NCBI GenBank assembly: GCA_003215725.1
Contig: QCJX01000007.1
Span: 1-64,000 of the forward strand
Direction: 5' to 3'
DNA: 64,000 nt
DNA from: Prochlorococcus sp. AG-409-I11
GTDB taxonomy: Bacteria > Cyanobacteriota > Cyanobacteriia > PCC-6307 > Cyanobiaceae
In this document: positions 45,228 to 47,329 of the stretch, piece after piece
Layout: each line of letters opens with the position of its first letter
Position numbering within the stretch: the first letter of the stretch is position 1
The notes under the pieces: generated by a model
What the model was told of the DNA's origin: nothing
Database searches by the model: none
The model's input: the letters and a program-made list of their open reading frames with translations, nothing else
Program-made: the position numbers and the translations under genes

Positions 45228-46403
45228 CTATTCTATCCATTCTACTCTAGAGCATTCTCTTTTAATAAGCAGATTATTTGCAACATCTTTGGTTTCACAT
45301 GGACTATGCTCAATGACAGCCTTTATTGATTTTTTGTGGAAATCATGTTGAAGGACTAGAGCATCTTCTAACTTCTTATTTTTACTATAAGCTATAAGTA
45401 CACATTCAGAATTTTCTTTAGAATTAATCTTTTTGTTTGATAATTCTCTAACCTTATCTATAGCAAAACTAAAACCAGTCCCTGCAGCAATTGATTTATC
45501 TGTTCCAAACTTTTCAACTAACTTGTCATACCTACCTCCTTTTGCAATTACTATAGGAGCAGATACACCTTCACAAACTAATTGAAATACTAATCCATTA
45601 TATAAGTTGAAGTGTGGTTGGAATGTAGTATCTAAAAATAATTTTATTCCTTCTTCTTTAGATCTTGAATCGACAATATTAAAAAGTTTATATAATTCGT
45701 CGAATATTTGACTTTTACCGTATGTGGATTCTAAAAAGTTTAGAATCTCTTCCCAACTTCCACGTGCACTAAGAACTCTAATAAGTTTTTCCTTTAATTC
45801 ATTTTCCAAGCTCAAATTATCAAGATCTATCCTATTTAGATTTACGAGAGATGATCTTGTCATCTCTCGTAAATCTAAGGGAATTTCTTCTAATATTAGG
45901 TCCATTATAGATGTATGACCTATTAAAAGGCTCGGTTTATAATTCTGATTCAATTCACATTCTTTATACGCATCAATTAGTAAACAAAGAAGTTCAATCT
46001 CTGCAGTAATTCCTTTTATTCCAAATAGTTCCACTCCACTTTTCAAATTTTCTTCTATCAGTAATCCGCCTTCTATAGCTTGATTACTTTCAAACACGGT
46101 TCCCGATGACCATAACCTTAATGGTCTTGGCTTCTTTGCAAGTCTGGTACATGCAGCTCTTGCTATAGAGGCTGTCATTTCTGGTCTTAGGCCTAGTGGT
46201 TCATTTGCCACTAATGTTGCGATTTCCTTGCTGGAAATTCCACCTCCTGCCATTAGAGTTTCTGTTCTTTCTATCCTTGGTGGAGCCACTTCCTCGTAGC
46301 CCCATAGTCTGTATATTTTTGCAAGACGTTGGCTTAACAAATGGTTTGACTCCACTTGTTGAGGATTGAGATCTCTTGCTCCAGCTGCTGGTTTTAAAGC
46401 CAA
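45228..46403 (-). CDS. hisZ: HisZ, ATP phosphoribosyltransferase regulatory subunit
   Basis: 391 residues from TTG 46403. It resembles class II histidyl-tRNA synthetase without tRNA-charging elements: GARDLNPQQVESNHLLSQRLAKIYRLWGYEEVAPPRIE, LRPEMTASIARA, and a late IAKGGRYDKLVEKFG block. HisZ activates the short form of HisG in the first step of histidine synthesis. A remarkable 19-bp perfect inverted repeat lies in the middle of the gene and is part of the conserved coding sequence (separate entry). Confidence 0.92.
   Translation of the reverse strand: MALKPAAGARDLNPQQVESNHLLSQRLAKIYRLWGYEEVAPPRIERTETLMAGGGISSKEIATLVANEPLGLRPEMTASIARAACTRLAKKPRPLRLWSSGTVFESNQAIEGGLLIEENLKSGVELFGIKGITAEIELLCLLIDAYKECELNQNYKPSLLIGHTSIMDLILEEIPLDLREMTRSSLVNLNRIDLDNLSLENELKEKLIRVLSARGSWEEILNFLESTYGKSQIFDELYKLFNIVDSRSKEEGIKLFLDTTFQPHFNLYNGLVFQLVCEGVSAPIVIAKGGRYDKLVEKFGTDKSIAAGTGFSFAIDKVRELSNKKINSKENSECVLIAYSKNKKLEDALVLQHDFHKKSIKAVIEHSPCETKDVANNLLIKRECSRVEWIE
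45836..45878. repeat. 19-bp perfect inverted repeat inside hisZ
   Basis: Left arm 45836-45854 (TTAGATTTACGAGAGATGA) is the exact reverse complement of right arm 45860-45878, with a five-base loop (TCTTG). On the hisZ message it would form a hairpin in the segment encoding LDLREMTRSSLVNL. No T-run follows, so it is not a standard terminator. The coding frame is unbroken. Confidence 0.95.
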
Positions 46404-46453: not shown

Positions 46454-47329
46454 TCAGAGAAACTTTTCATCTAGAGGTTTTACTTTACTTAATTCCACTT
46501 TCATCTCGTGATGAATACCTGGTGTACATGCAAGAACTCTTCCACTATTCAGATCAAACTCTCCATTTGGGTAATTGCTAATAATAGCTCCAGCTTGTTC
46601 TGCGATTGCTACCCCAGCTGCTAGATCCCAAGGACTGAGTCCTCTCTCCCAGTAACCATCTAATTTACCTGAAGCAATAAATGCAAGGTCTACTGCTGCG
46701 GCTCCACCTCTCCTAACACCTCTTGATCTATTTGTCATCCAACAGAACTCAGAGTAGTTATTATCTGAAGTTGTTTGCCTATCATATGCAAACCCTGTAA
46801 CTAATAACGAATTTAATATATGATTGCTACTAGATACTTTAATTTCTTTTTGATTACAGAATGATCCAAGAGTTGGTGCTCCATAATATATTTCTTTTAA
46901 GTATGGTACATGTATAGATCCTAATATTGGTTTGCCATTATATGTTAGACCGATTGATGTTGCAAAAAAAGGATAGCCGTGAGCATAGTTAGTAGTTCCA
47001 TCTAAAGGGTCTATGCACCAAACTAACGAGTTTTGCGGTCCATAACTTCCTGTCTCTTCCGCTAATATTGATATATCTTTTGTTTGTGATGTTAAATACT
47101 CAAGTATTAAATTCTCTGCCTCAATATCTGCATTGGTAACCAGGTCACCTATTGTTCCCTTGCTTTGAATTTCATTAATATTTCCAAAGTTTTTTATTAA
47201 TGATTCTCCTCCTATTAAAGAAGCCTTTTTAGCTATGTTAATTAATTTATTTATATCACTACTTTGCAGGCCAGCATCTAATGCCGCATTTCTTGTAATC
47301 AGATCACTTTGTAAACTCATCTTTTTCAT
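46454..47329 (-). CDS. inositol monophosphatase-family phosphatase
   Basis: 291 residues. The metal-binding motifs of the family are present: GDLVTNADIEAENLI, ILAEETGSYG, WCIDPLDGTTNYAHGYPFFATSIG and the C-terminal WERGLSPWDLAAGVAIAEQAG. Members hydrolyse inositol phosphates or fructose bisphosphate and related sugars; cyanobacterial members can also act in sulphur metabolism. The precise substrate is undecided. It lies 50 bases upstream of hisZ. Confidence 0.88.
   Translation of the reverse strand: MKKMSLQSDLITRNAALDAGLQSSDINKLINIAKKASLIGGESLIKNFGNINEIQSKGTIGDLVTNADIEAENLILEYLTSQTKDISILAEETGSYGPQNSLVWCIDPLDGTTNYAHGYPFFATSIGLTYNGKPILGSIHVPYLKEIYYGAPTLGSFCNQKEIKVSSSNHILNSLLVTGFAYDRQTTSDNNYSEFCWMTNRSRGVRRGGAAAVDLAFIASGKLDGYWERGLSPWDLAAGVAIAEQAGAIISNYPNGEFDLNSGRVLACTPGIHHEMKVELSKVKPLDEKFL

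Follow-up and report, generated by a model that had tools for sequence, protein, structure and literature searches.

The formation of perfect inverted repeats inside genes by replicational template switching is an already known process. Quasipalindromes in E. coli lacZ are converted to perfect or more perfect repeats (PMC7202029), and in yeast coding genes the arms of inverted repeats are homogenised by template switching, which alters several adjacent amino acids and does not need selection (PMC8604942). For prokaryotes, Ladoukakis and Eyre-Walker (2008, cited in PMC4060949) attributed an excess of short inverted repeats in coding sequence to template switching; the excess, also surveyed in PMC4060949, is set against a codon-aware null, the sites are scattered and the arms described span 6-9 bp. 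Perfect inverted repeats are also found in the translated genes of Nematomorpha mitochondria, many of them species-specific (PMC6649704).

Here, we describe a perfect inverted repeat in hisZ of Prochlorococcus sp. AG-409-I11, which is most likely another case of this process. It is the kind of product that the lacZ reporters predict, a close inverted repeat within a gene that is perfect or nearer to perfect; whereas in lacZ the event was caught, at hisZ the end product alone is visible. The yeast events were dated on a strain phylogeny, unlike the one proposed for hisZ. With these prokaryotic repeats, our locus shares the coding excess over a codon-aware null and the scatter of sites, but its arms are considerably longer, with 19 bp each. 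The Nematomorpha repeats differ from the hisZ repeat in having arms of up to 142 bp, in being far denser and in that some are common to several species.

A perfect inverted repeat within hisZ

The window, by which we mean the whole stretch of 64,000 nucleotides that was analysed (contig QCJX01000007.1, positions 1 to 64,000), contains the following features at this locus:

45228..46403, minus strand: hisZ, ATP phosphoribosyltransferase regulatory subunit, 391 aa, intact, listed start TTG
45836..45854, minus strand: arm 2 (in reading order), codons S-S-L-V-N-L and the first base of N190
45855..45859, minus strand: loop of 5 nt, CAAGA on the message strand
45860..45878, minus strand: arm 1 (in reading order), codons L-D-L-R-E-M and the first base of T182

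The arms, TTAGATTTACGAGAGATGA (45836-45854) and TCATCTCTCGTAAATCTAA (45860-45878), are complementary at 19/19 positions (100%) and enclose a 5-nt loop. This confirms to the base the 19-bp perfect inverted repeat with a five-base loop that the first-pass annotation had reported inside hisZ. The repeat sits in frame within a 391-codon minus-strand ORF, which is identified as hisZ by NCBIfam NF008939 (539 bits, cut-off 335). No other close inverted repeat in the window is as long; the second-longest, with arms of 15, lies outside the ORFs called in our scan. Directly upstream of hisZ, positions 46454-47329 (minus strand) hold an inositol-monophosphatase-family gene whose best model is the HisN histidinol-phosphatase (151.7 bits, under the cut-off of 275); the two may perhaps be neighbouring genes of the histidine pathway.

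Folding predictions yield -32.2 kcal/mol (z = -7.3) for the repeat on the message strand and -34.0 kcal/mol (z = -7.9) on the antisense strand. The very stable stem that had been proposed for the message is thus borne out as a prediction, and a stem of this predicted stability could in principle slow ribosomes. The repeat also exceeds chance, as had been claimed, since synonymous-codon shuffling within hisZ, which preserves the protein and its codon usage, never passed an arm of 12 in 3,000 shuffles (typically 7-8). On the basis of these shuffles pure chance was rejected.

Palindromes can also reach coding sequence as mobile pieces. Rickettsia palindromic elements are dispersed repeats that add residues to proteins. 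Like the hisZ repeat they place a palindrome in frame inside an ORF, but they insert and recur, whereas the hisZ repeat shows no insertion and no second copy. The HisZ protein aligns without indel at the repeat site to nearly all relatives and keeps the family length; the exception, L035, carries two additional residues there. Further copies of the arm with up to 3 mismatches are absent from the available genome sequence, an exact arm search in IMG/VR contigs gave no useful match, and a search for distant DNA matches in phage records led nowhere. In the absence of an indel against nearly all relatives and of additional copies, an inserted palindromic element of the RPE or REP type was rejected, in agreement with the first-pass annotation, which had argued against an inserted palindrome.

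Conservation among hisZ relatives

To place the repeat within its family, 47 hisZ relatives were aligned, all of them distant: none is from the same genus and the nearest has 56% protein identity. The repeat is absent in every one of them. At the homologous columns the relatives pair on average at 4.8/19 positions, where slid controls span 4.1-6.7; the best single relative pairs at 9/19, and perfect repeats with arms of at least 9 are found at this site in none of them. Maintenance of the stem through compensatory change is therefore not seen among these distant relatives. As far as they show, the repeat appears not to be conserved, which would still be compatible with a function confined to the lineage.

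The protein segment had been described as conserved, and this holds for one part of it. R179, R183 and L186 are conserved, whereas residues 176-178 in arm 1 are variable and arm 2 deviates from the family preference at three positions: S185 (A in 32/47), L189 (Y or F in 45/47) and N190 (D in 42/47). Together with these deviating residues, arm 2 contains the rarer codons: CTC and CTA, which make up 5% and 13% of leucine codons, are both rare and both located there. In codon adaptation arm 2 falls into the lowest 7% of hisZ windows and arm 1 is average; the codon rarity of arm 2 is modest. On the DNA level, identity in AT-rich relatives is 40% for arm 1 and 38% for arm 2, values that do not separate the arms at such distance.

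As for a role in RNA, no U-run follows the stem on the message strand, which thus has no terminator tail. The antisense strand offers one weak terminator-like match, with the tail GGAATTTCTT, compared to 0.8 expected from shuffles. An intrinsic terminator was rejected on these grounds. A search of the repeat against Rfam gave no match either. Given the absence in all 47 relatives, pairing at chance level, the lack of a U-run and the empty Rfam search, the suggestion that the hairpin acts on the message or seeds a small RNA is left unsupported. Judged by its lack of conservation, the hairpin would seem to be without function, although this basis is silent on a function specific to the lineage.

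Inverted repeats in coding sequence across the genome

Our genome scan covered about 1.06 of 1.33 Mb, consisting of the window and further stretches, with 868 kb of mechanically called ORFs. Close and perfect coding inverted repeats with loops of up to 20 were counted and compared to a null of synonymous-codon shuffling. In the 868 kb of ORFs, AG-409-I11 has 29 coding repeats with arms of at least 12, where 1.75-2.6 are expected, and 7 with arms of at least 15, where 0-0.05 are expected. The hisZ repeat is an extreme member of this genome-wide population: only one other coding repeat, L077:2290-2342 (arm 20, loop 13), beats its arm length. Other long coding repeats in the same genome are found at L088:17021-17067 (arm 18) and L085:6975-7019 (arm 17). 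The first-pass annotation had called a mid-gene hairpin of this kind unusual, which does not hold for a genome in which 1.06 Mb contain 7 such repeats in coding sequence with arms of at least 15. Since the genome has several such sites, one long perfect coding repeat is by itself no sign of regulation.

Perfect arms also occur outside the called ORFs, at L089:5623-5686 (31), L071:11520-11582 (29) and L061:12624-12684 (28); these are perhaps terminators or similar scars. On contig C1 (about 80 kb), L058:1-2500 is an N run of about 2.5 kb, which is either masked sequence or an assembly gap.

A comparable population is present in G031, a relative whose genome is assembled in one contig. In 346 kb we counted 11 coding repeats with arms of at least 12 (0.5-0.8 expected) and 5 with arms of at least 15 (0.05 expected).

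Proposed template switching and alternative explanations

We regard the hisZ hairpin as probably a mutational product of replicational template switching and not as a selected element. During replication, the polymerase would have stalled in an earlier imperfect inverted repeat within hisZ, copied a few bases from the nascent strand or from the other template strand instead, and then returned to its first template. One arm would thereby have become perfectly complementary to the other, and the rewritten stretch, retaining the frame and encoding tolerable amino acids, would have persisted. The direction was probably from arm 1 to arm 2. The rare codons and the three departures from the family in arm 2 are what is expected if this arm was overwritten, and they are suggestive only that it was copied from arm 1. 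We infer both the event and its direction from the sequence as it stands today. At hisZ itself, the repeat is close and perfect, has a short spacer and lies beyond codon-preserving chance; across the genome, the excess is made up of unrelated sites. An excess in genes that is scattered, unrelated in sequence and not conserved is as template switching predicts.

The 5 coding repeats of G031 were compared with relatives at 61-83% identity. In 2 of the 5, one arm is much less relative-like than the other. At L111:1911-1944, identity to the relatives amounts to 9 and 7 of 15 in one arm versus 12 and 13 in the other, and at L125:6311-6340 to 6 and 4 of 15 versus 9 and 11. Going by these identities, both repeats would fit the pattern of a one-arm replacement. 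The G031 relatives also pair at 47% of positions at the repeats compared to 25% when slid. This higher pairing is not independent evidence, because shared identity to the palindrome explains most of it. The reading that it reflects ancestral quasipalindromes was dropped, since identity to a perfect palindrome yields a similar level of pairing.

Several other explanations have to be weighed against template switching. A lineage-specific functional RNA hairpin, carried by the hisZ message or by an antisense transcript, would pause ribosomes, block or direct RNase cleavage, or cause the ferredoxin and htpG genes downstream to be expressed less. The stem predicted on both strands is very stable, the pairing is perfect and the following same-strand gene begins 24 bp past hisZ, all of which would suit such a role. 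We nevertheless consider it unlikely, given that the repeat is missing from all relatives, that the message strand is devoid of a terminator tail and the antisense match is at chance, that Rfam gives no match, and that the hisZ repeat is one among many scattered through the coding sequence of this genome. Selection at the DNA level would retain a cruciform-forming palindrome because it provides a binding site or aids supercoiling, and a close, perfect repeat within a genome-wide excess is in line with this idea. The sequences of the arms, however, vary between repeats, no second copy is found within 3 mismatches and the position is not conserved in relatives, which makes DNA-level selection highly improbable in our view.

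A more technical concern is a chimeric fold-back introduced by single-cell amplification or during assembly. Chimeras from amplification are often inverted, the assembly is fragmented (37 contigs totalling 1.33 Mb, 74% complete), and the closest named records resemble single-cell genomes. Yet a fold-back should have produced long arms or disrupted the gene, whereas the hisZ ORF is intact across the repeat and has the length typical of its family. Single-cell amplification is moreover unneeded as an explanation because the one-contig G031 shows the same kind of excess of coding repeats, and we hold an artefact to be very unlikely. That the repeat simply arose from protein sequence and codon usage can be given practically no credence: nothing but AT-richness (window GC 0.353) speaks for it, and it would have to account for an arm of 19 in a gene where 0/3,000 codon shuffles gave even an arm of 13, as well as for the surplus of arms of at least 15 throughout the genome. 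Template switching as the source of the hisZ repeat implies that a striking in-gene hairpin can be an ordinary trace of replication error. The counts presented here further provide a codon-aware yardstick for judging in-gene hairpins.

Differences between clades

The comparison between clades draws on the window and on stretches L054-L146 and L160-L179. For genus g18, the sample was taken from 26 stretches of G364 and 14 stretches of other genomes and amounts to 686 kb of coding sequence. It contains 9 coding repeats with arms of at least 12, where 4.15 are expected, and 0 with arms of at least 15. At the rate of AG-409-I11 about 5.5 of the latter would be expected, corresponding to a Poisson P(0) of about 0.004, a value to be read in light of the fact that related genomes are not independent. 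The excess of long coding repeats is accordingly strong in AG-409-I11 (G000) and G031 and weak in g18.

The clades also differ in their nuclease matches. Searches of 6 g18 genomes returned no matches for recJ or xseA, whereas both genes are present in G031, G003, G051, G010, G039 and G055. Losses of recJ and xseA are on record for strain MED4 (PMC551534), and from genome size, GC content and these losses we infer that g18 is the high-light clade. The 74% complete assembly of AG-409-I11 is uninformative on both genes: there is no xseA match, and a recJ fragment is located at the end of contig 8. A search for SbcD found no genome above the cut-off and did not separate the clades.

It is rather doubtful, with a small chance of being right, that the formation or retention of long perfect coding repeats differs by clade within the family, with g18, which has no recJ or xseA match, at the weak end. 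If the losses of recJ and xseA (ExoVII) were causal, natural palindrome formation would depend on these nucleases, in the opposite direction to the one suggested by their function as enzymes that remove single-stranded DNA. The clade difference would offer a natural way of testing which of the nucleases influence template-switch mutation. As a cause of the g18 contrast, nuclease loss is a weak candidate and serves as a lead, because it comes from one contrast with a single clade and because five other genera with recJ and xseA, when pooled, likewise have 0 repeats with arms of at least 15 in 329 kb of coding sequence. Among arms of at least 12, the same five genera show a clear excess, with 10 repeats observed compared to 1.05 expected.
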